This document shows, piece by piece, positions 6,188 to 47,890 of a stretch of 64,000 bases of DNA; positions within the stretch are counted from its first letter, which is position 1, and each line of letters opens with the position of its first letter. Made by a program: the position numbers and the translations under genes. Origin of the DNA: Acidobacteriaceae bacterium (GTDB lineage Bacteria; Acidobacteriota; Terriglobia; Bryobacterales; Bryobacteraceae); NCBI GenBank assembly GCA_019240405.1, contig JAFAYL010000048.1, forward strand, positions 1 to 64,000. Direction: 5' to 3'. The notes below the pieces were generated by a model, which did no database searches, had not been told where the DNA came from, and was given only the letters and a program-made list of their open reading frames with translations.

Positions 6188-6207
6188 AGATTTTCGAACG
6201 ATTGTAC

Positions 6208-6291
6208 CGAACAGTTACTCTTTTTCCAGCGGCAGCCCGCAGGTTTCAATCGCACGCCAGCCGCGGTCGAGAGAGATTACGTTCATGTAGC
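6208..6291 (-). pseudogene. Rhodanese gene 3'-end fragment (copy 1)
   Basis: The minus strand encodes the last residues of a rhodanese (GWRAIETCGLPLEKE then stop), matching the end of the intact gene at 9871-10257 (GWRAIEASGLPIEKE). Identity continues seven bases past the stop (CGAACAG on the plus strand) and then ends abruptly. The other boundary lies seven bases from the stop codon of the ADOP permease. No start codon or catalytic cysteine region remains, so this is a fragment, not a gene. It is closer in sequence to copy 2 (both read LPLEKE) than to the intact gene. Confidence 0.85.
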
Positions 6292-8864: not shown

Positions 8865-8884
8865 GTCAGTGAAGGCGAATGCAA

Positions 8885-9038
8885 CGAACAGTTACTCTTT
8901 TTCCAGCGGCAGCCCGGAGGCTTCAATCGCCCGCCAGCCGCTGTCGAGCGAAATCACGTTTGTGTAGCCCATCTTCTGCAAGTTGTCGGTAGCAAGCGCG
9001 GAGCGATATCCGCCGCCGCAGTACAGCACGAGTTTCGC
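8885..9038 (-). pseudogene. Rhodanese gene 3'-end fragment (copy 2)
   Basis: About 154 bases match the last third of the intact rhodanese gene, from just before the active-site loop (LVLYCGGGYRSALATDNLQK region, in plus-strand reverse complement) to the stop and seven bases beyond (CGAACAG). The 5' part of the gene is missing; the boundary lies two to three bases from the stop codon of the ABM-like gene at 9041. It cannot be translated as a complete protein. Confidence 0.88.
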
Positions 9039-14269: not shown

Positions 14270-14617
14270 ATGCGGCATACCGACGCAGGATGGTCAAACC
14301 CGAAAGTTCTCGCGATCATCGCGCTGGTCTTTCTGTGCGGCGCCGCGGTCGGGTCAGCCGTGACCAGACAGTATCTGCACTCGCGATTATTTCCGGCAGA
14401 ACATGTGCGCCTTGACCGATTGAAAGCCGAACTGAACCTCACTCCGGAACAAGAGAAGGTAGTGACCAAGGAATTGGACGACTACGCAAAGTATTACCAG
14501 AACATCGAAGAACAGCGCGAAGACGTGGCCGACCTCGGCCGGGCGCGCATCCGCCAGGTCTTAAACGAAGAGCAGAAAAAGCGTTTCGACGAGCTCTTCA
14601 AGAACTGGCCGCACTGA
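14270..14617 (+). CDS. Spy/CpxP-like membrane-anchored periplasmic protein
   Basis: A 115-residue protein with one N-terminal helix (VLAIIALVFLCGAAVGSAV) and a helical periplasmic part containing the LTPEQEKVVTKELDDY motif near 56-71 and a second helix ending VLNEEQKKRFDELF, the pattern of LTxxQ/heavy-metal-resistance-like proteins. Such proteins bind unfolded proteins or sense envelope stress. As third gene of the sigma/anti-sigma operon it may be the sensor or a target. Its stop lies two bases from the stop of the opposing anti-sigma gene. Confidence 0.78.
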   Translation: MRHTDAGWSNPKVLAIIALVFLCGAAVGSAVTRQYLHSRLFPAEHVRLDRLKAELNLTPEQEKVVTKELDDYAKYYQNIEEQREDVADLGRARIRQVLNEEQKKRFDELFKNWPH

Positions 14618-14619
14618 GG

Positions 14620-14892
14620 TCAGGCATCGGCCTTTTTGACCGTTGCACACCCTTTCGCTCGCATCTTTTTCTCGAGAGCTGCCATTAGCCGAGCCTCCAC
14701 CGCGGGTGGAACCTTCTGCGGCTCCATACCTTTGAATACCTTCAGGGTCTTCTCTGTTGTATTGCAAAGAACCCAACAGTTCGGGCATTCGTTCACATGC
14801 CGCTCCAACTCCTGGCGAAGCTTAGGGTCCAGACCTTCGTCGAGGAAATCGTTCAGTTCCTGCAGAAACTCCTTACAGGTAACCAAATGCAT
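14620..14892 (-). CDS. Zinc-binding anti-sigma factor (RsrA/ZAS-like)
   Basis: A 90-residue soluble protein containing C6 and the H-x3-C-x2-C motif HVNECPNC (about 32-39), the signature of zinc-dependent anti-sigma proteins such as RsrA. No membrane helix is present, so it would act in the cytoplasm, possibly through redox of the zinc cysteines. It overlaps the 3' end of the upstream sigma gene by 20 bases, implying coupled translation with its target. Confidence 0.88.
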   Translation of the reverse strand: MHLVTCKEFLQELNDFLDEGLDPKLRQELERHVNECPNCWVLCNTTEKTLKVFKGMEPQKVPPAVEARLMAALEKKMRAKGCATVKKADA

Positions 14893-15496
14893 CGTCCCCC
14901 TTTCGTTTGAACTGCCGGGTCAGCTTCTCGCGAAGCTGCAGCCTGGCTCGTAGCAGACGGCTTTTCACCGCCGAAATAGACAGATTCAATGCCTCCGCAG
15001 TCTCCTCGATCGACAGTTCTTCGATGTCTCTCAAAACAAAAACGGTTCGATAAGCTGGCTTTAAACTTTGGACGGCTTGATCTAAGATTTCCGCCAGTTC
15101 GTCGCGAGAGTATTTCTGCTCCGGGTTCTCATCCCAAACGGCTACCTCGCGAACCATTTCGTCTTCGCCGGTGTCAATCGGCTCGTCTAAGGGAACGGTT
15201 TTGTCAGAACGCCGCTTGCGGAGCTTCATCAAGGCTTCGTTAACCGCGATCCTCACAAGCCATGTGTAAAAGCGCGAATTCCCTTGAAAATCATCAAGAT
15301 GCGAGTAGGCCTTCAGAAACGTTTCTTGAAGAACATCTTCGGCATCTTCTTCGTTTTGAGTTATCTGCTTTGCCATCCGGAACACACGGCGGTCATACTG
15401 CGTGACGAGCTCGGAGAACGCATCAGCGTCGCCTGCCTTGGCACGGGCTACTAGCGCGGCTTCATCAAAACCCGGGGATACGGTCGAGGTACTCAC
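14873..15496 (-). CDS. ECF-type RNA polymerase sigma factor
   Basis: A 207-residue ECF sigma factor with region 2 (AFSELVTQYDRRVFRMAKQ, NEEDAEDVLQETFLKAY, FYTWLVRIAVNEALMKLRKR) and region 4 (QSLKPAYRTVFVLRDIEEL, LNLSISAVKSRLLRARLQL), of the RpoE/SigR kind. The start is GTG at 15496; no clear Shine-Dalgarno is present. It overlaps the downstream anti-sigma gene by 20 bases and is divergent from thrS. A deleted second copy of this gene and of the intergenic region lies at 20258-20411. Confidence 0.94.
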   Translation of the reverse strand: MSTSTVSPGFDEAALVARAKAGDADAFSELVTQYDRRVFRMAKQITQNEEDAEDVLQETFLKAYSHLDDFQGNSRFYTWLVRIAVNEALMKLRKRRSDKTVPLDEPIDTGEDEMVREVAVWDENPEQKYSRDELAEILDQAVQSLKPAYRTVFVLRDIEELSIEETAEALNLSISAVKSRLLRARLQLREKLTRQFKRKGDDAFGYL

Positions 15497-15586
15497 GCGA
15501 AAAGCACACCTAGTCTATCAATCTCCTGTTTCTGGGCCGGGACTGGAGTTTCGATGCATCTGTTACCCTCGAATTAATCCAGAGAA

Positions 15587-17521
15587 ATGAGCGATTTAAC
15601 GGTTACTCTGCCAGACGGCAGCCGGCAAGCAGTTCCAAAAGGCACGCGACCGGCCGATATCGCTCAATCCATCAGCCCTCGTCTGGCGGCAGACGCGATC
15701 GTCGCGCGAGTGAATGGCGAGCTCTTTGACCTCACCCGGCCGCTCGATGGCGATGCCGAACTGCAGATTCTTACGACCAAGAATCCCGAAGCTCTCACGG
15801 TGTATCGTCACTCGACCTCGCACCTTTTGGCGGCGGCTGTGCTCGAGCTCTTTCCCGAAACCAAGCTGGGTATCGGCCCACCGACGGACACGGGCTTTTA
15901 CTACGATTTCCAGCGGGAGACGAAGTTCACTCCCGAAGATCTTGAAGAGATCGAGGCGCGCATGCACGAGCTGCAGGCCAAGAATCTGCCTTTCGAACGA
16001 AAACTCACGTCGAAACAGGACGGACTCGAGAAGTATCGCGATGACTGGATGAAACGCGAGCTGATTGAGGAGCGCGCGGGGGATGTGTTCACCGAGTACA
16101 CGCTCGGGCCTGATTTCATAGATTTTTGCCGGGGACCGCATGTTCCGTCGACGGAAAAGTTGAAGGTTTTCAAGCTGCTTTCCATTTCCGGCGCCTACTG
16201 GAAGGGCGATGAAAAGAATCCGCAGCTACAGCGAATCTATGGAACGGCGTTCTTTACAAAGAAGGAGCTGGATGAATATCTGCACCGGCTGGAAGAAGCT
16301 AAGAAGCGGGATCACCGAAAGCTGGGACAGGAGCTCGATTTATTCAGCATTCAGGAGCTCGCCGGCCCGGGTCTGATCTTTTTTCACCCGAAAGCCGGGG
16401 TGATCCGGAAAATCATCGAAGACTGGATGCGCGATCAGTACATGGAACGCGGCTATTCGCTGGTTTACACTCCTCACGTGGCGCGAAGCGATCTCTGGAA
16501 AACTTCGGGGCATTACAATTTCTATTCGGAAAACATGTTCAAACGGATGGAGCTGGACGATGCAGAATACCAGCTCAAACCGATGAATTGTCCGTTTCAC
16601 ATCCTGATTTACCGTGACCGGCTGCACAGTTACCGCGATCTGCCCGTGCGCTTGGGCGAGCTCGGCACGGTCTATCGGTATGAGCGCTCGGGCGTCATGC
16701 ACGGGCTGTTTCGTGTCAGAGGTTTCACGCAAGACGATGCACATATTTTCTGCACTCCGGCGCAAATTGAAGACGAGGTGGTGAATTGCCTTCAGTTTGC
16801 TGTCGATACTCTGCGGACCTTTGGGTTTGAACAATACGAAGCCGAGCTATCGACTTGGGATAACGGCGCCAGCGGCAAGTATGACGGTGCTCGGGAAGAA
16901 TGGGAGCTTGGTGAAAACGCGCTTAAGCGCGCAGCCGATCGCTTGAATCTGAGGGTGAAGATTTCGCCCGATGAGGCTGCGTTTTATGGACCTAAAATCG
17001 ACGTGAAACTGGTTGACGCGATCGGACGTTTGTGGCAGCTCTCGACAGTTCAGTTTGATTTTACGCTGCCTCGGCGTTTCGGGCTGGAATATATCGCTGA
17101 AGACGGTAAATCGCACCAGCCACTAATGGTGCATCGCGCACTCTATGGCTCCATCGAGCGTTTTTTCGGCATTTTGATTGAACATTACGCTGGCGCTTTT
17201 CCGGTATGGCTGGCCCCCGTTCAAGCAACCGTGCTGCCTATTACCGACCGGCAAATTGCTTACGCAAGACAAGTGGAAAAGAAATTATCCGGCGCAGGCA
17301 TTCGCGTCCACGTCGATGACCGGAATGAAAAGGTCAACTTCAAAATTCGGGAGGCGCAACTGCAAAAGATCCCATTTATGCTTGTCGTCGGCGACCGTGA
17401 AGCTCAGGCTGGGGAAGTCTCCGTGCGCAATCGCAAGCGCGGCGACCAGGGCGCCCAATCCATTGATGCCTTTCTGGGCAATCTTAGGAACCTGATCGAA
17501 ACCAAGGCGATCAGCGAGTGA
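15587..17521 (+). CDS. thrS: Threonine--tRNA ligase
   Basis: ThrRS charges tRNA-Thr. At 644 residues it matches the E. coli enzyme (642). Order: TGS domain (1-62), editing domain with HSTSH near 74-78 and CRGPH near 183, class II catalytic core (about 250-540) with motif 2 (VYRYERSGVMHGLFRVRGF), and anticodon-binding domain (about 545-640). The zinc ligands are kept (MNCPF, DDAHIF and VHRALYGS regions). The leader is about 90 bases and shows no T-box. It is divergent from the sigma gene. A copy with two large internal deletions sits at 20515-20705. Confidence 0.98.
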   Translation: MSDLTVTLPDGSRQAVPKGTRPADIAQSISPRLAADAIVARVNGELFDLTRPLDGDAELQILTTKNPEALTVYRHSTSHLLAAAVLELFPETKLGIGPPTDTGFYYDFQRETKFTPEDLEEIEARMHELQAKNLPFERKLTSKQDGLEKYRDDWMKRELIEERAGDVFTEYTLGPDFIDFCRGPHVPSTEKLKVFKLLSISGAYWKGDEKNPQLQRIYGTAFFTKKELDEYLHRLEEAKKRDHRKLGQELDLFSIQELAGPGLIFFHPKAGVIRKIIEDWMRDQYMERGYSLVYTPHVARSDLWKTSGHYNFYSENMFKRMELDDAEYQLKPMNCPFHILIYRDRLHSYRDLPVRLGELGTVYRYERSGVMHGLFRVRGFTQDDAHIFCTPAQIEDEVVNCLQFAVDTLRTFGFEQYEAELSTWDNGASGKYDGAREEWELGENALKRAADRLNLRVKISPDEAAFYGPKIDVKLVDAIGRLWQLSTVQFDFTLPRRFGLEYIAEDGKSHQPLMVHRALYGSIERFFGILIEHYAGAFPVWLAPVQATVLPITDRQIAYARQVEKKLSGAGIRVHVDDRNEKVNFKIREAQLQKIPFMLVVGDREAQAGEVSVRNRKRGDQGAQSIDAFLGNLRNLIETKAISE

Positions 17522-17541
17522 ACAGTCGAAGTAATCGTCAA

Positions 17542-19374
17542 CTATTCGCTCAGGCTTTGATTGGTGAAGACGGATTTCCCTCCGCTCCGCGCGAGCGGAA
17601 ACGACCGCAGGCCCTTAAGTTCTTTCGGGTTCTCTTGATCCGTCCACAGGAACACCCTACCGGGACCGTTCCACAACGCCGCTAACGTCTCCGGACTTTC
17701 GAAGATATGGGGCGCATCCGGAAACTTCGCCCCAAACCAAAGGTTGCCGCTCGGTTCATGGAAGACGTGAACCTGGACGCCAGTATAAAAATTTAGCGTC
17801 GAGGCTTCGTGATACTCGCCGTCGATGACAATCACATCGCGCGGCCGATACTGTTTTCGAATCGCCTGCGCAAGGTTGTACGAAGACAGAATCGGTGAGA
17901 ACGTGATAAAAGAAAAATGCACACACGCCAGTAACACGATCATCATTGCAGCGAGCGCAACATTGCCGGCAAACGGACGACCTCGCCGGCGGAATATCCA
18001 GTTCAGTCCGGTTCCGAGAAGCAGCCCCAGCGATACTCCCAAAAGCGGGCCGCGAAAAGCGCCCAGCGCTTGAGGCGTAAGATCCAGCACGTGCCCGAGC
18101 GAGAGATTGTACTCTTCTGGATTCTTCTTGAGCAGATCTGCCAAGTCCGCTCCGGGTGCGGGCCGCTGGGAAATAAACAAGAAAATCATCCCGGCGACAA
18201 ATGCGAGCACGCCAAACACAAAGAGGACTGTTGAAGAAATCCTCCCCGCCCGGCGATGCAATTCGTCCGCTGACGAATGGGATTCGCGCGCGAGCCAACC
18301 GCCAACCAAGAGCGCCAGAGCGGGCAATGCGGGAATTGTGTAATACTCCTGTCGCGTCGAAAAGCTGAAGAAGCCTATAATGACGAGCGCCCATAAGAAA
18401 AAGAGCAGATTCGCGACGTTTCGCCGGTCCGTCTTAATTCCTGGCTGGCGAAGTTCGTGCCATTTTGCCAAGCCATTGCGAAGAGCTTGCGGAAGGAATG
18501 CAGCCCATGGAAAAAGCCACGCCAGAGTGAGGCCCCAAAAAATTCCAAGCGGAACCGTATCAAACCCCGGCGGCACGCGCTTACCAAGAAAGCGCATCAG
18601 GTGTTCATTAATGAAGTACAACCACAGAAAACCTGGAGCCTGGCCCTGAGCCGGATTTCGCGCTGCGGCAAGGATGTGCCATGGCGCTGCGATCGCCAGG
18701 AAGACGAGCAGGCTCGAAACGATGCGCATCTTGAACAGTTGGCGCAAATTCGCCGTCAGCAACAGCGCGAGTCCGATTGCTGCCCCCGGGAATATCAGTC
18801 CGATCAAACCTTTCGTCAACACATTCAGAGCGCACGTCGCGGCGAATCCCCAGCAAAGAAAGCGCGAGGGTCGTTCTTCTTCGAGCGCCCGCAGAAAAAA
18901 ATAGTAGCCCAGGGTCAACCACAACGCGACCAGCGCTTCGGGAATCAGAAAGCGTGTGTAGACATACAACCCCAGTGAGGTGACTAGCCCTACTCCTCCA
19001 TATAGGCCGCCCATCTCTCCATAAACATGCCGTCCCAACACGTAGGTTGCTAGAACCAGTGCGAGCACACCGAGCATGAGGGGCAAACGTGTGCTCCATT
19101 GGCTAACTCCGAAAACTTTGTAGCTCGCTGCTACCGTCCAATACATTAGGGGAGCCTTTTCCAGATAACGGATGCCGTCAGTGTGGATCGTCACCCAATC
19201 ATTCCGCTGCGCCATTTCACGCGCCGCCTCAGCGTGGACCGAGTCGACGTCATCAAGTAGAGGAGGGCGCGAAAGACCGGTCATGTAGATGACGGCCCAT
19301 AAGGCTAACAGCGTCAGTACGGAAATGCGCCAATCTGAAAACAGGCGCTTCGGACCGTTCGTCACCGAGCCCAT
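17542..19374 (-). CDS. ArnT/PMT-like membrane glycosyltransferase
   Basis: A polytopic GT-C glycosyltransferase (610 residues from the chosen ATG). The first extracytoplasmic loop has the acidic motif PPLLDDVDSVHAEAAREM followed by YLEKAPLMYW, typical of GT39/GT83 enzymes such as ArnT that use polyprenyl-phosphate sugars. Ten or more hydrophobic helices follow, then a C-terminal periplasmic domain (from about residue 510). I chose the ATG at 19374 (MGSVTNGPKR); the frame opens farther upstream at 19455 but that would overlap the SMR gene. Acceptor is unknown; lipid A or protein are both possible. Confidence 0.88.
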   Translation of the reverse strand: MGSVTNGPKRLFSDWRISVLTLLALWAVIYMTGLSRPPLLDDVDSVHAEAAREMAQRNDWVTIHTDGIRYLEKAPLMYWTVAASYKVFGVSQWSTRLPLMLGVLALVLATYVLGRHVYGEMGGLYGGVGLVTSLGLYVYTRFLIPEALVALWLTLGYYFFLRALEEERPSRFLCWGFAATCALNVLTKGLIGLIFPGAAIGLALLLTANLRQLFKMRIVSSLLVFLAIAAPWHILAAARNPAQGQAPGFLWLYFINEHLMRFLGKRVPPGFDTVPLGIFWGLTLAWLFPWAAFLPQALRNGLAKWHELRQPGIKTDRRNVANLLFFLWALVIIGFFSFSTRQEYYTIPALPALALLVGGWLARESHSSADELHRRAGRISSTVLFVFGVLAFVAGMIFLFISQRPAPGADLADLLKKNPEEYNLSLGHVLDLTPQALGAFRGPLLGVSLGLLLGTGLNWIFRRRGRPFAGNVALAAMMIVLLACVHFSFITFSPILSSYNLAQAIRKQYRPRDVIVIDGEYHEASTLNFYTGVQVHVFHEPSGNLWFGAKFPDAPHIFESPETLAALWNGPGRVFLWTDQENPKELKGLRSFPLARSGGKSVFTNQSLSE

Positions 19375-19406
19375 GGGCTGGAATTGCTGCGTGATTCCCA
19401 ATAGGA

Positions 19407-19784
19407 TCAGGTGAGGAGAAGCACCCCGCAGCACACGAAAAGAATCGCGAACCAACGGCGGCGATCTACGTTTTCATGCAGGAAGAACTTGGCGGCGAAG
19501 GCGTTGGCCACAAACGTCAGCGCTGCTGTTGCCGGACCCATGAGGCTCAGGTCCGCCCAAGAGAGTCCGACGAGATTGCTGAAGAAAGCGATTGCCATGA
19601 AGGCTACGCCACCGAAGAAGACTCCGCTCGAAAGAGCCTGGGGGGTGAATGTAAATAGACGCCGATGACGGTGCACATCAGCGAGGTCGCCGATGCGGCG
19701 CATGGCGAGAGCAATCAGAACATCTCCAGCGGCAGCGCTGCAGATAGTAGTGCTGATGCAAAGCCAGACGTAGAAGGTTCTCAC
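19407..19784 (-). CDS. SMR/EamA-like membrane protein, second half of a pair
   Basis: A 125-residue protein with four predicted helices. The last two (SLMGPATAALTFVANAFAAKFF and RRRWFAILFVCCGVLLL) show the P-A-T-A/ and G-V-x-L-L pattern of small multidrug resistance and half-EamA proteins. The start is a GTG that overlaps the stop codon of the upstream partner (GTGTGA), which argues for a two-component transporter. Substrate unknown; drug, lipid-linked sugar or polyamine export are all known for this fold. It is 32 bases upstream of the ArnT-like gene, where SMR-like flippases of undecaprenyl-phosphate sugars are often found. Confidence 0.75.
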   Translation of the reverse strand: MRTFYVWLCISTTICSAAAGDVLIALAMRRIGDLADVHRHRRLFTFTPQALSSGVFFGGVAFMAIAFFSNLVGLSWADLSLMGPATAALTFVANAFAAKFFLHENVDRRRWFAILFVCCGVLLLT

Positions 19785-20170
19785 ACGTGCTCCTCTGCGG
19801 TCTCCGATTCGGAGATATGCATGGGCGGTTTCTCGGTGCGCGAGGGACCTCCGGCAACTATCCCGACACCGAGGACGATGAAACCGACTCCAGCCCAGCG
19901 GTGCAGGCTGACATGCTCGTGCAGCCAAATGATCGAAAGGAGCACCATGACCACATAGCTGCCGGCGGTGGCAGGGAGAACGTAGCTCAGGTCGGCAAAC
20001 GAGAGCGCAGTCATGTAGCTGAACATGAAAATTAGGAGCGAAAGGATTCCAAGAATAACGAAAGGATTGGCGAGCGCCGGTAACACTTTGGCGACATGAT
20101 GAACATCGACAGGCCCGACCTGCTTCATGCCGCGCGAGAGGAAAGCGTCTCCGACTGCGCCGAAGATCAC
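19781..20170 (-). CDS. SMR/EamA-like membrane protein, first half of a pair
   Basis: A 129-residue protein with four helices. The third and fourth (SFADLSYVLPATAGSYVVMVLLSII and RWAGVGFIVLGVGIVAG) carry the SYVLPATA motif of EmrE-like proteins. A short acidic tail follows. The downstream gene starts inside its stop codon. Together they probably form a heterodimer like other paired SMR systems; proximity to a GT-C glycosyltransferase suggests an undecaprenyl-phosphate-sugar flippase as an alternative to drug export. Confidence 0.78.
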   Translation of the reverse strand: MIFGAVGDAFLSRGMKQVGPVDVHHVAKVLPALANPFVILGILSLLIFMFSYMTALSFADLSYVLPATAGSYVVMVLLSIIWLHEHVSLHRWAGVGFIVLGVGIVAGGPSRTEKPPMHISESETAEEHV

Positions 20171-20257
20171 AATCCGTAGAATAACGATATACTTACGAAG
20201 GGTCAGGCGAGTTCTCCGGTTACGGAAACGTTAGAATTTATTACTCGCTTCCCGCAC

Positions 20258-20411
20258 TGCTTTGGACCGCCTGGTCCAGAATTTGGGCCAGTTCGTTTCG
20301 CGAGTATTTCTGCTCCGGATTTTCATCCCAAACGGCAACCTCGCGGACCATTTCGTCTTCGCCAGTATCAATTGGCTCATCCAAGGGAACCGTCTTGCTG
20401 GAGGTACTCAC
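20258..20411 (-). pseudogene. Deleted copy of the ECF sigma gene
   Basis: The plus-strand sequence from about 20258 to 20400 matches 15064-15205 of the intact sigma gene (including the part encoding EQKYSRDELAEILDQ and its flank). At about 20400 it jumps to sequence equivalent to 15485 onward, which includes the GTG start region. About 280 bases of the middle are missing, so region 2 is lost. Beyond the start codon the homology continues through the sigma/thrS intergenic region. Confidence 0.88.
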
Positions 20412-20514
20412 ACAGAAAACACACCCAGTCTAGCAGTGTTGGCTGTGCCTACAGCCCGGGAGTTTCGATTCATCTGTTAACCCTCGAATCAATCCATTCG
20501 AATTGAACCAGGCA

Positions 20515-20705
20515 ATGAGCGCTCTTACCATCACTCTGCCCGATAGCAGCCGACAGAGCGTTCCAGAAGGCGACCGGCCGATATTCGTGTCCCAAGTCGC
20601 TCACCGCAGTGAGAAAGTAAACTTTAAGATACGGGAGGCACAGCTACAAAGATTCCTTTTATGCTTGTCGTTGGCGATCGTGAAGCCAAAGCGGTGAGCG
20701 AGTGA
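20515..20705 (+). pseudogene. thrS relic with two internal deletions
   Basis: It begins like ThrRS (MSALTITLPDSSRQSVPEG against MSDLTVTLPDGSRQAVPKG), jumps after about 23 codons to the C-terminal anticodon domain (EKVNFKIREAQLQ identical), loses one A (frameshift) just after that, then reads IPFMLVVGDREAKAVSE and a stop, missing a further 35 or so codons present in thrS. As read, an open frame of about 60 codons remains. The stop overlaps the GTG start of the HpnI-like gene. The upstream leader retains the sequence GAGTTTCGAT-CATCTGTTA-CCCTCGAAT found before thrS. Confidence 0.92.
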
Positions 20706-21829
20706 TTTTCGTCGCTGCCGCGAGTGTTCTCCTCGCCGGGTCGATTTTCTACTGCGTTCTGGTCGTTGTGGCAGCCTTGAGAGAGGCTCGCGAGGCGCGG
20801 GTGCTCTGTGACAGTGATCCGCGCATAACCATATCCGTACTAAAGCCGCTAGCCGGATTGGACGAGGACCTGCGTGAGAATCTTGTCTCGTTCTTCGAGC
20901 AGGAGTACCGGGGTTTTGAGCTTATCTTCGCAGTGCGGCACGTGAGTGATCCCGCCGTACCCATTGTTCAATCGCTAATAGCGCGTTATCCGAATGTGCC
21001 CTGCCGTTTGCTTACCACCGGTGAGTCGCCGGACCCCAACGCGAAAGTTCACAGTCTCAGCGTGATGACTGCCGCGTCGTCTCATGAACTGCTGGTGATG
21101 AGTGATAGCGATATTCGAGTGGACCGCAAATTTCTCTCGCGAATTGCAAATGAGGCTGCGGCGAACTGGTACGATCTGGCAACTTGTCCCTACCGTGCTG
21201 TTCCGGGGCGCACGATCTGGTCGCGCCTCGAAGCCACTGGAATGAACACCGAGTTTTGGGGCGGAGCGCTCGCAGCCAAGCTTACGGAAGGTGTCCGCTT
21301 TGCCATTGGTCCCACGATTATCGCCCGCCGCGAAGTCATTGCTGCGATCCCTTGGAAAACGCTTGGCGGATATCTTGCCGAAGATTTTGTGCTCGGCCAG
21401 CGCGCTTCCGAGAAGGGTTTTCGCGTTAATCTCTCGCATTGCGTTGTGGAGCACCGCCTCAGAAGCGACACGTTGCACGATAACTTGTTACACCGCTTGA
21501 GATGGGCTCGCAGCACGCGGCGCTCAAGGCGCTGGGGCTACATCGGCCAAGTGTTCACTCATCCGCTGCCGGTGGCCTTCTTGGCCTGCTTGGGTCACTT
21601 TTCGTTTTGGCCGCTGATTTTCGTAATATGCCTACTTCGCTCGGCAGCAGCTTGGGCTGTCTCTAAAAAGGTCCTCCACACGCGGGTGGCATGGCATCTG
21701 CTTCCGTTCCAGGACCTGGCTGGTTTCGCGTTCTGGATTGCGGGCTTCTTCGGAAATTCGATCGAATGGCGCGGTCAGCAATACCTGCTGAATCGCGATG
21801 GAACTGTCGAGCAGAGCGCCGCGAGTTAG
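20702..21829 (+). CDS. HpnI-like / ceramide-glucosyltransferase-like family 2 glycosyltransferase
   Basis: A 375-residue membrane-bound GT2/GT21-type enzyme. It has an N-terminal helix, the donor-binding motif VMSDSDIRVD (about 130-139), EDFVLG near 223 and the (Q/R)xxRW-type signature LLHRLRWARSTRRSRRW near 259-275, then two or three C-terminal helices. Relatives are HpnI, which adds GlcNAc to bacteriohopanetetrol, and ceramide glucosyltransferase; no hopanoid or sphingolipid genes are in the window, so the acceptor lipid is unknown. The GTG start lies inside the stop region of the thrS relic, so its expression may depend on the old thrS promoter and leader. Confidence 0.85.
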   Translation: MIFVAAASVLLAGSIFYCVLVVVAALREAREARVLCDSDPRITISVLKPLAGLDEDLRENLVSFFEQEYRGFELIFAVRHVSDPAVPIVQSLIARYPNVPCRLLTTGESPDPNAKVHSLSVMTAASSHELLVMSDSDIRVDRKFLSRIANEAAANWYDLATCPYRAVPGRTIWSRLEATGMNTEFWGGALAAKLTEGVRFAIGPTIIARREVIAAIPWKTLGGYLAEDFVLGQRASEKGFRVNLSHCVVEHRLRSDTLHDNLLHRLRWARSTRRSRRWGYIGQVFTHPLPVAFLACLGHFSFWPLIFVICLLRSAAAWAVSKKVLHTRVAWHLLPFQDLAGFAFWIAGFFGNSIEWRGQQYLLNRDGTVEQSAAS

Positions 21830-23505: not shown

Positions 23506-23658
23506 AATCTGAATAAGCAGTCGCGGACACCGGACATTTCGTCTTCGGGTGGTCAAGTCGAATATTCGGGCCCTTCAATTCCATAAAAGTCAGGGCTGGA
23601 AGTTCAGCATGAGTTTCCGCATGAAGAATTCGGCCATGCAATGTTTGAAATGAATATC

Positions 23659-23751
23659 TGCAGCAGCTTCGGCTCGCTAAAAGGCGGGTGATGAGTTGCA
23701 ATCCGACCAGCAGGCCGCCCACTGTGCTTCCGACGGCATTGATAGTGCTGG
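23659..23751 (-). pseudogene. Amidase gene 3' fragment
   Basis: About 93 bases match 37966-38060 of the intact amidase, encoding the segment GLPVGLQLISAPFSEPKLLQ (here GLLVGLQLITRLLASRSCCRY in a shifted frame, with a small indel). The last dozen codons and the whole catalytic part are missing. No other feature is recognised between 23337 and 24087 apart from this and the possible GNAT fragment. Confidence 0.8.
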
Positions 23752-37935: not shown

Positions 37936-39291
37936 CTACGCCAACGCCGCTTCCAACGTCCGCGCAGCCTGCAGCAGCTTCGGCTCGCTAAAAGGCGCGC
38001 TGATGAGCTGCAATCCAACCGGCAGACCGCTCGGTGTCCTTCCGCATGGCATCGATAGTGCCGGTTCCCCCAAGAAGTTCAACCCTCTCACAAGACGCGT
38101 CGATGCAATCCGCGTATCCTCCGGCTCCTGCCCAATCCGCACCGAGTTCTCGGTGAGCAGCGGCGCAGTTATGGGCGTCGTTGGTGTGACCAGCACATCG
38201 ATCTCCTTCCAGAGCGCATCGAAATCACGCCGGAACAGTGTTCGGATGCGCTGCGCATTCACGTACTCGTGCCCCGCGATCAGTTTGCCTTGCTGAATCA
38301 GATTCCAGACATCTTCCCCGAACAAAGCCGGATCGCTGTGGTGTGCGTACAACGCAGTCGCTTCGGAAAGCTGAATAATGCGCGCCGCTGTGTTGACCTC
38401 ATGCATGTCGGGAATGCGCAGCTCAGATAACGCAGCCCCCTGCCGCTTCATTTCCGAAATGCTGGACTGAACCGCGCGAGCTATCTCCTCATCCACTCGC
38501 TCAAAATAGAAATTTTTCGGAATCCCAACTCGCACTCCCTTGAGATTGCCCAACGCCGGAAGATTGAAATCGGGAACCGGAACCTTCGCCGAACTCGGAT
38601 CGAACGGATCATGACCGGCAATCTCGTTCATCGCCAGAGCGCAATCTTCCACACACGATGCAAGCGGCCCGACATGATCGAGGCCAAAAGCAAGCGGCAG
38701 GACACCATAACGGCTCACGCGTCCGTACGTCGGCTTCAAACCGGTCACGCCGCAAAACGAAGCGGGAATCCGAATGGATCCGCCTGTATCCGTCCCGAGA
38801 GCCACTGGCAAAAAACCTGCCGCAATGAGCACCGCAGATCCGCCACTCGAGCCGCCTGCGATCCGGCTCGTGTCGCGCGGATTCAGCACAAAACCATAAT
38901 GTGGATTCTTTGAGGTCGTCCCGTAAGCGAGCTCGTGCAGATTCGCTTTGCCGATCGAAATCGCGCCCGCAGCCTTTAGCCTCTCAACCACCGTCGCATC
39001 GTACTTTGGAATGAAATCACGAAAGACAAGCGAGCCTCCGGTCGTCCGAATCCCGCGCGTATAGAAAAGATCTTTATGCGCCGTGGGAATCCCGTGAAAT
39101 GGCCCGCGATCAATCCCGGCCGCCAGCTCCTCGTCGCGTTCCCGCGCTTCTTTGAGAGCGTCTTCCTCAGTAAACGTGATGAGCGCGCGCAGCTCCTCGC
39201 GGCTCTTGACATTCGCGACCGTCTTCTGCACCAGCTCCACACACGAGAGTTTTCTTGCGCGAAGCAGCCAGCCAATTTCTCTGACCGTCAT
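37936..39291 (-). CDS. Amidase-signature-family enzyme (GatA/AtzE-like)
   Basis: A 451-residue amidase-signature protein with the Ser-cisSer-Lys triad: K73 (THKDLF-type, here AHKDLFYTRG), S148 in GGSSGGSA and S172 in GTDTGGSIRIPAS. The C-terminal part is intact (LPVGLQLISAPFSEPKLLQ). Length and helix content match GatA, AtzE and other single-domain amidases. A 58-codon gene overlaps its start by four bases; small GatC-like or AtzG-like partners occupy that position in amidotransferase and AtzE systems. A GatB gene is not present nearby, so tRNA amidation is less likely than hydrolysis of a small amide. A 3' fragment of this gene recurs at 23659. Confidence 0.92.
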   Translation of the reverse strand: MTVREIGWLLRARKLSCVELVQKTVANVKSREELRALITFTEEDALKEARERDEELAAGIDRGPFHGIPTAHKDLFYTRGIRTTGGSLVFRDFIPKYDATVVERLKAAGAISIGKANLHELAYGTTSKNPHYGFVLNPRDTSRIAGGSSGGSAVLIAAGFLPVALGTDTGGSIRIPASFCGVTGLKPTYGRVSRYGVLPLAFGLDHVGPLASCVEDCALAMNEIAGHDPFDPSSAKVPVPDFNLPALGNLKGVRVGIPKNFYFERVDEEIARAVQSSISEMKRQGAALSELRIPDMHEVNTAARIIQLSEATALYAHHSDPALFGEDVWNLIQQGKLIAGHEYVNAQRIRTLFRRDFDALWKEIDVLVTPTTPITAPLLTENSVRIGQEPEDTRIASTRLVRGLNFLGEPALSMPCGRTPSGLPVGLQLISAPFSEPKLLQAARTLEAALA

Positions 39292-43359: not shown

Positions 43360-43475
43360 CGCGCCCGAGCTATTATGGTCGCGTTATGGCGCAAATCGCG
43401 GAACACGCTCGTAACCAACGCCGTCGAGCGCTGGGCCACTCCCGATCAGAAGCGAAGGTATCTTGGGCAGCTTGC
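43360..43475 (+). pseudogene. Acyl-CoA dehydrogenase 5' relic with internal deletion
   Basis: The sequence GAGCTATTATGGTCGCGTTA followed by TGGCGCAAATCGCGGAAC matches the start region of the acyl-CoA dehydrogenase gene (46692-46731), then jumps at a shared GAAC to sequence equivalent to 47017-47080 (encoding NTLVTNAIERWANTDQKRKYLGQLAT). About 285 bases are missing between. It ends abruptly after about 115 bases. Confidence 0.9.
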
Positions 43476-43646
43476 AACGAACAGCAGCGGAATGGGCCGC
43501 CCGAGGCGCCTGCGATTTGTTGACCGAACCCCGCACTCATCTCATGGGCCTTTGCGCCGTTCTTGCGTAGGCCGGGCTGATCCAAAATCTGTAAGAAGGG
43601 TTTGATATTTTTGGGCTTAATTTTAGAATTGGAGCATCTGTTAGAA

Positions 43647-46528: not shown

Positions 46529-46711
46529 TTCATCCTCGGGTTTCCGCCAAAGCGAGGCTCCAACCTCGTCCTGGATTGCCCATTTACTAGTTCTTGTTGT
46601 TTATATCAGAATTCGTCTCGATAAATCGAATTTAACAGGGAATACTTGTTAACGGAACAGCAAAATGGACAACCAGCCGACCGCGCAACTTCGAGCTATC
46701 ATGGTCGCGTC

Positions 46712-47890
46712 ATGGCGCAAATCGCGGAACTTTCGCCCGTTGCTCCCCTAACCGTGCTCCAGGAAGAAGAACAACTGTTCCAGGCCTCCGTCCGGCAGTT
46801 TGCAAAAGAGCGCCTCGCGCCGCATGTGCGCGCCATGGATGAAGAAGGGAAGTTTCGGCCTGACCTTTTGCGCGAGTTGTTCGATATGGGCCTGATGGGC
46901 ATCGATGTCGACGAGGAATACGGCGGCCAAGGTGGATCGTTCTTCCAATCCGTATTGGCAATTGAAGAGCTCGCCAAAGTAGATCCGTCGGCTTCCGTCA
47001 TCGTCGATGTTCAGAACACGCTCGTAACCAACGCCATCGAGCGCTGGGCGAATACCGATCAGAAGCGAAAGTATCTTGGGCAGCTTGCAACGAAAAGCGT
47101 TGGAGCATACGCGCTTTCGGAAGCGCAATCGGGCTCTGACGCGTTTGCCCTCACCACGCGAGCCGTCGAGGACGGCGGCAGCTACAGCATCTCTGGCCGA
47201 AAGCTCTGGATCACAAACGCCGCCGAAGCGGATGTGTTTCTCGTTTTCGCAACCATTGATCCCGCCGTCGGTTACCGCGGAATCACTTGCTTCTTTGTGG
47301 AGAGAGACATGCCCGGTTTCCAGGTGGGCAAAAAAGAAGACAAGCTCGGAATTCGGGCGTCATCCACATGCGAATTGATCTTCGACGACGTCCGTCTCGC
47401 GCGCGATCAGGTGATGGGCGAGCCCGGTAAAGGCTACAAGGTCGCCATCGAAACCCTCAACGAGGGCAGAATCGGCATCGCGGCGCAGATGCTCGGCTTA
47501 GCCGAAGGGGCCTTCGAGCACGCCCTAAAATACGCGAAAGAGCGAAAGCAGTTCGGAAAACCCATCGGCGAATTTCAAGGTGTCCAGTTCGAGCTGGCCG
47601 AGATGGCAACCCGCATTGAAGCCGGACGCCTGATGGTCTACAACGCCGCTCGGCTCTGTGATGCTGACCAGCCGTTCGTCACCCAAGCAGCCATGGCCAA
47701 GTATTTCTGCTCCTCCATCGCTGAAGAGATCGCCTCAAAAGCCATCGAGGTCCTGGGCGGCGTTGGTTTTACAAAGGATTACCCGGTCGAAAAACTCTAC
47801 CGGGACGCCAAAATCGGCCGCATCTACGAGGGAACCAGCAACATGCAGCGCGTCACCATTGCTAAAGCTTTGCTCGATTCCCGCAAATAG
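46712..47890 (+). CDS. Acyl-CoA dehydrogenase (short/branched-chain type)
   Basis: A 392-residue FAD enzyme that oxidises acyl-CoA at alpha-beta. N-domain helices (5-120), beta-domain with YALSEAQSGSDAFAL and WITNAAEADVF, and C-domain with RKQFGKPIGEFQGVQF and VLGGVGFTKDYPVEKLYRDAKIG. The catalytic glutamate lies in IYEGTSNMQ near residue 374. I chose the ATG of MAQIAEL as start, as in the family; the frame opens at 46646. A broken copy of the 5' region is at 43360-43475. It lies divergent from the cohesin-like gene. Confidence 0.93.
   Translation: MAQIAELSPVAPLTVLQEEEQLFQASVRQFAKERLAPHVRAMDEEGKFRPDLLRELFDMGLMGIDVDEEYGGQGGSFFQSVLAIEELAKVDPSASVIVDVQNTLVTNAIERWANTDQKRKYLGQLATKSVGAYALSEAQSGSDAFALTTRAVEDGGSYSISGRKLWITNAAEADVFLVFATIDPAVGYRGITCFFVERDMPGFQVGKKEDKLGIRASSTCELIFDDVRLARDQVMGEPGKGYKVAIETLNEGRIGIAAQMLGLAEGAFEHALKYAKERKQFGKPIGEFQGVQFELAEMATRIEAGRLMVYNAARLCDADQPFVTQAAMAKYFCSSIAEEIASKAIEVLGGVGFTKDYPVEKLYRDAKIGRIYEGTSNMQRVTIAKALLDSRK

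Follow-up and report, generated by a model that had tools for sequence, protein, structure and literature searches.

A shrunken second copy of the sigE/thrS locus lies at positions 20260 to 20705 of the window, i.e., the 64,000-nucleotide stretch of contig JAFAYL010000048.1 analyzed in this study, and retains the gene order and orientation of its parent at 14873 to 17521. This remnant is probably the rest of a resident sigE-thrS allele, standing beside DNA imported from a sister species and reduced in size afterward. In a search of the genome's own contigs, the intact locus and the remnant were the only copies of sigE and thrS. The features of the region and the related gene stubs are collected in Table 1.

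Table 1. Features of the sigE/thrS region and other gene stubs in the genome
Feature	Position	Strand	Basis or remarks
r2, second stub of the rhodanese 3' end	6199..6291	-	81% over 74 bases
r1, stub of the rhodanese 3' end plus ~19 bases	8876..9038	-	88.9% over 144 bases
Intact zinc-finger gene (-), sigE (-), and thrS (+)	14620..17521	.	
ArnT-like PMT gene and two EamA half-transporters	17542..20170	-	Separate the intact locus from the remnant
sigE remnant (sigma region 2-4 linker, 45 codons, joined to first codons)	20260..20411	-	Alignment
Divergent sigE/thrS intergenic region	20412..20514	.	Alignment; -10-like elements TGCTAGACT and TGTTAACCCT
thrS remnant (three pieces: the first ~73 bases, part of the anticodon domain, and the final 20 bases including the stop; two one-base indels)	20515..20705	+	Alignment
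GT21-type glycosyltransferase, GTG start	20702..21829	+	Overlaps remnant thrS stop
Stub of amidase 3' end (parent 37939-39291)	23658..23751	-	85%
Acyl-CoA dehydrogenase stub (parent 46646-47887)	43366..43485	+	93-95%; two pieces across a ~283-base deletion
C56 stub (694 bases of the 3' end of its parent)	L216, G000:C56:251058-257589		Opposite-strand genes (5 kb) lie between the intact parent and the stub

Structure of the remnant

The best match between the remnant and the intact locus is the sigE piece, in which 20260 to 20397 aligns with 15066 to 15203 without gaps and with 84% identity (E = 3e-33). The adjoining segment, 20399 to 20435, corresponds to 15484 to 15520 and comprises the start of sigE and the bases preceding it. 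The divergent intergenic region is 103 bases long, compared with 90 bases in the intact locus. On the other side, the 5' part of thrS (20515 to 20584, its first ~73 bases) is joined to a piece with 80% identity to 17300 to 17403 (20583 to 20686), followed by the 3' tip of the gene including its stop codon (20686 to 20705, equivalent to 17502 to 17521). Compared with the intact genes, sigE has lost ~280 bases, and thrS has lost ~1,640 bases plus a further ~98 bases close to its end. The original prediction of a collapsed sigma/thrS copy with deletions of about 280 bases, 1.6 kb, and 100 bases is borne out, and the pairwise alignment that it proposed as a check has defined the junctions and yielded significant matches.

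Neither the C-terminal part of sigE nor the zinc-finger gene (14620 to 14892) has a counterpart at the left edge of the remnant. An open sigE frame of 56 amino acids extends from 20411 down to a stop codon at 20241-20243, and the thrS tail contains a one-base insertion (read by eye) and a one-base deletion. At the right edge, the four bases GTGA (20702 to 20705) hold both the remnant thrS stop codon (20703 to 20705) and the GTG start codon (20702) of the GT21 gene. With homology to an intact gene, deletions, and frame breaks, the remnant has the character of a deletion-eroded pseudogene. The in-frame joining of thrS across the large deletion was considered as a sign of selection and dropped, since an out-of-frame deletion together with a one-base insertion produces it (read by eye).

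The prediction had also held that the loss of gene middles with retention of the ends and the promoter is unusual for random decay. The collapse and the internal deletions are as described, whereas the retained ends and promoter need no special cause: an eroded locus is expected to keep its ends when it is bounded on the right by GT21, whose start codon overlaps the thrS stop codon, and on the left by an import junction. On our reading, the left edge of the remnant is such a junction.

Among the genes between the intact locus and the remnant, the ArnT protein shares 37-41% identity with full-length homologues from the genus. One EamA gene (EamA_b) has no ATG, GTG, or TTG start codon ahead of its first membrane segment, and a CTG codon after GGAG is a candidate start (by eye). 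The GC content of the ArnT-EamA-EamA stretch shows no contrast with that of its surroundings.

The retained intergenic region

The sigE-side element TGnTARACT is found in all 14 genus relatives that were read (by eye), and the remnant carries it exactly (TGCTAGACT, an extended -10-like element). The thrS-side element TGnTAnnCT occurs in 13 of the 14 (by eye; G002 is the exception), and in the remnant the corresponding -10 region (TGTTAACCCT) has one inserted base, with which the match is lost.

A possibility that is compatible with import, and to which we give somewhat less than an even chance, is that the remnant has been retained by selection and now acts, with short leader frames, as a promoter in both directions, for EamA-EamA-ArnT leftward and for GT21 rightward. 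The exact sigE-side element, the position of the remnant between divergently oriented gene sets, the open sigE frame with 43 of its 45 aligned residues kept, and the overlap of the thrS stop codon with the GT21 start codon are consistent with such a role; elsewhere, EamA-EamA adjoins a GT21 homologue at one locus (L040) and ArnT adjoins one at another (L038). On the other hand, the thrS-side element is broken by the inserted base, the leader is longer, and the thrS frame is shifted. Scans of 19900 to 21000 for promoters and terminators gave results near chance. The one consensus promoter site (0.7 expected) lies outside the remnant, at 20166-20193 on the plus strand; terminator-like sites number two (1.3 expected), each within the sigE remnant and again on the plus strand. 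The single genome in which the remnant was found provides no measure of conservation after the collapse. Given its place between EamA-EamA-ArnT and GT21, the intergenic region may reasonably be assigned a putative divergent promoter role. A known leader RNA was also considered and found no support, as Rfam gave no match (E up to 1) over 14500 to 21000, which covers both the intact locus and the remnant.

Divergence and phylogeny of the two alleles

The sigE pieces of the remnant and the intact gene differ at 3, 0, and 19 first, second, and third codon positions, respectively, so that 19 of the 22 differences are at third positions. By the Nei-Gojobori count, 20 of 28.5 synonymous sites and 2 of 106.5 nonsynonymous sites differ in the sigE piece, and the corresponding values for the thrS pieces are 22.7 of 33.5 and 11.3 of 113.5. 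Because the differences are mostly at third positions and mostly synonymous, both copies must have diverged as working genes, and the substitution pattern places the collapse late compared with the split of the two alleles. The few synonymous differences that a recent tandem duplication would leave are not what is found in this pair. Between the intact sigE and the sigE of other species, 19.5-27.5 of 28-30 synonymous sites differ, and the value for the remnant is at the low end of this range.

In a tree of 285 aligned bases, to which several relatives contributed only two of the three pieces, the remnant and the intact copy of the same genome form a clade (UFBoot 94; 85 for sigE alone). The support is 93 once two poor rows (G021 and G018, misregistered or very divergent) are removed. 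A position of the remnant outside the genus is rejected with an AU p value of 0.003, which overstates the case, since the constraint also forces monophyly of the genus. The natural reading of these sequences is that the intact locus and the remnant would be two alleles of sister species. The remnant had originally been taken for a copy of the neighboring genes, and this view is abandoned: its divergence, the trees, and the GT21 neighborhood described below point to a separately diverged allele at the ancestral place.

The closest relative of the remnant is the genome's own intact copy and not another sampled species, which would also suit an old tandem duplication in the lineage, with both sigE-thrS copies functional for a long time before one of them collapsed. 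We consider this origin unlikely. The silent divergence is as large as that of the closer species pairs, and two adjacent thrS genes would therefore have had to stay unconverted for very long. In addition, none of the 39 relatives searched has two full thrS genes of this type, although a thrS-like match was obtained in 38 of them, and the rhodanese stub r1 and the C56 stub bear the same signature as the sigE piece.

Gene order in relatives

Relatives show, whole or in part, the order murQ-iscA-rpoE-antisigma-cpxP-zf-sigE(-)-thrS(+)-GT21(+), where zf is the zinc-finger gene. Among eight loci of relatives that carry names, seven come from Acidobacteriota MAGs and one from a cyanobacterium, which suggests an acidobacterial source for the window. 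GT21 directly follows thrS in 9 of the 16 other genomes of the genus (G002, G005, G006, G007, G008, G009, G011, G014, and G015), a count in which G003, G013, and G016 are not scorable (contig ends or missing thrS). The two genes are also adjacent in G020, G021, G023, and the MAG SZAS-8; GT21 is not directly after thrS in G001, G010, and G012, nor in the 450 bases left in G004. In the window, the intact zf-sigE-thrS set is followed by ArnT, EamA, and EamA, all on the minus strand, and then by the remnant and GT21. The remnant thus stands directly before GT21, as thrS does in relatives, and its position is therefore that of the ancestral thrS. Because of this position and the overlap with the GT21 start codon, the remnant probably marks the resident locus.

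The arrangement of ArnT-EamA-EamA after thrS was found in none of the fetched loci of relatives, and none of the 16 other genus genomes carries the parent allele of the remnant, so that donor and recipient are indistinguishable by this comparison. The search for the same copy in relatives, which had been proposed at the outset, found the whole remnant in 0 of these 16 genomes. It was likewise not found as a whole in the 149 other genomes of a 150-genome family sample (at most four candidates scored per genome), in which only single pieces are matched. Two remnant-like matches in G008 (L098), in adjacent frames and 538 bases apart, look like a repeat within one gene; apart from these, the 494,945 bases searched (38 loci) contain no remnant-like match.

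The sigE-thrS locus is labile in the genus. The two genes were found side by side in 7 of the 16 other genomes, and different genes stand beside sigE or thrS in several of the remaining ones. The GT21 gene beside the remnant is itself an outlier, with 49-56% identity to nine GT21s of the genus, which share 60-75% among themselves, and with the longest branch of the genus clade (0.72; the others are 0.11-0.35, except for G011 at 0.60). Such an outlier is not predicted by a simple resident origin of the locus.

Other variation at this locus was noted among relatives. The thrS genes of G002, G005, G015, G016, and G007 (L110, L111, L088, L084, and L086/L087, respectively) are 65-93% identical to that of the window over the first ~240 residues and 42-60% identical beyond them (67-72% in a single bin of 60 residues), as though one of the two groups had exchanged the remainder of the gene. 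The sigE gene of G006 (L102, 10872-11336) lacks ~178 bases, sigma region 4 among them, and continues into the zinc-finger gene, and the sigE gene of G012 is intact, though 99% identical to this truncated gene. In G009 (L099, 8170-8670), ~500 bases with an open frame of 113 amino acids separate sigE and thrS.

Gene stubs elsewhere in the genome

Pieces of open frames lying outside same-frame open frames were scanned for in 124 kb of this contig, 700 kb sampled from other contigs of the genome, and two relatives. Six stubs (nine matches at six places) were found on this contig and one (C56) on the other contigs; there were none in the two relatives, G011 and G023, of which 180 kb apiece (360 kb in all) were covered. 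The parents of the six are rhodanese (twice), sigE/thrS, acyl-CoA dehydrogenase, amidase, and a gene at 123387 (stub at 121400), which may be a branching-enzyme end. All seven stubs are direct repeats at most 15 kb from the parent, and in all seven (six parent loci) the parent end facing the stub is kept. Six stubs were known when this rule was formed, and C56, found afterward, conforms to it; sigE/thrS was scored as one unit, missing only the far 190 bases. The layout expected of an import scar, i.e., an intact gene, new genes, a partial homologue, and the ancestral neighbor, is found at thrS/GT21.

The divergence pattern of working genes is present in the stubs of sigE/thrS, r1 (2, 0, and 14 differences by codon position; 14 of 16 at the third), r2 (3, 2, and 9), and C56 (9, 6, and 56; 56 of 71 at the third). 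The differences are even over codon positions in the acyl-CoA dehydrogenase stub and number 4, 3, and 3 in the amidase stub, for which only 40 bases are compared; these two and the stub at 121400 may be ordinary partial duplications.

The stubs r1 and r2 are stacked and have different neighbors, a MacB-like permease and a kinase, respectively. Like the intact rhodanese, they have EKE at the C terminus and CTGTTCG past the stop codon, both of which are absent from 13 of 13 genus relatives read. The three sequences also cluster in the rhodanese tree, in which G014 falls inside the cluster and groups with r1 (weak support, 54-59). A MacB-like permease (36%) adjoins the rhodanese of G014, which hints at the ancestral neighbor for r1. 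The gene beside the rhodanese 3' end is an amidase in 7 of 13 genus relatives (G001, G003, G004, G007, G008, G010, and G013; 56-72% identical); the amidase of the window is 28 kb from rhodanese.

An assembly artefact, in which pieces of a co-occurring sister species were joined into the contig, would fit a 63-contig draft with 3.84% contamination, six of seven stubs on one contig, and the clean gene tails of r1 and r2. It is very improbable, given that the internal deletions, the indels, and the overlap with the GT21 start codon in the remnant, as well as the internal deletion in the acyl-CoA dehydrogenase stub, would not result from the joining of intact contigs, and that the scanned stretches contain no Ns. 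Another candidate is site-specific insertion of elements at gene ends, as with e14 at icd, in which the element brings a new gene end and the former end becomes the far att site. This would suit r1 and r2, which are 3' ends of rhodanese that differ mostly at third positions and share bases just past the stop codon. We nevertheless give it hardly any credence and regard it as already disfavored. The genes scanned in Pfam (from the inserts of the sigE/thrS, r1, r2, and acyl-CoA dehydrogenase stubs) include no integrase domain, an identical crossover core was not found, and r1 and r2 break off at different points (144 versus 74 bases of the gene). The sigE/thrS remnant, moreover, contains two divergent genes and has its break within sigE.

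Proposed origin of the remnant

One-sided import from a sister species, the origin that we consider probable, would draw together the map of the remnant, the extensive and largely silent divergence of the two copies, their sister relation, the ancestral thrS-GT21 neighborhood, and the similar stubs on the contig. The resident sigE-thrS allele would have stood directly before GT21, and the incoming DNA would have carried zf-sigE-thrS with ArnT-EamA-EamA behind it. This DNA could have entered by homologous recombination on the left of the block and illegitimate joining on the right, inside the resident sigE; a circularized fragment entering by a single crossover would give the same map. Two working alleles would then have stood side by side, with the resident one redundant, and three deletions and small indels would have reduced the latter to the divergent promoter region and the end overlapping GT21. 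ComEC is present in the genome, which is weak evidence, as 10 of 14 control genomes have it too.

A broader proposal, which we offer as speculation and consider rather doubtful, is that the borders of the rhodanese...thrS block are a repeated landing place for sister-species DNA, each event leaving a stub. Rhodanese, r1, and r2 would then be three successive layers on the left, and the sigE/thrS remnant would be one layer on the right, which now acts as divergent promoter for a set of lipid-sugar genes; such stubs would be a general, orderable record of one-sided import in soil bacteria. A fixed stub geometry (facing end, direct orientation, and silent divergence) would allow import events, the relatedness of donors, and their order to be counted, and it would show how new genes come to adjoin essential genes such as thrS.

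Comparison with known systems

One-sided homologous import is known mainly from laboratory work. Homology-facilitated illegitimate recombination resembles the proposed event in that one end is homologous and the other illegitimate, and in that foreign DNA is put beside a conserved gene. As described in one report, it occurs in S. pneumoniae, A. baylyi, P. stutzeri, and E. coli, is most at home in naturally competent species, and is very rare in E. coli, where it was found in 4 of 60 clones; the microhomology at the illegitimate joint is mostly 3-10 bp, with none in three of the four E. coli clones (PMC3240628). According to the same report, 56 of 60 clones in one E. coli experiment were partial duplications of a gene end formed via a single crossover, a route open to a circularized and partly degraded fragment, and the duplications in 14 sequenced clones (lacZ) were 109-950 bp long (PMC3240628). 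A report on pneumococcus describes merodiploids made by transformation (PMC3784515). The known events of homology-facilitated illegitimate recombination are experimental and usually insertion-deletions, whereas here the joint would lie inside the resident homologue, a stub is left, and the event is reconstructed from its product. The single-crossover lacZ duplications share with the remnant an insert between an intact gene and a partial copy of the gene end in direct orientation, although the partial copy here appears to be a diverged allele that has since shrunk. In xenologous gene displacement, the allele of a housekeeping gene is replaced by that of a relative. The proposed import is similar in that the housekeeping allele of a relative would have taken over; it differs in that the two alleles would have stood next to each other and part of the displaced one can still be recognized.
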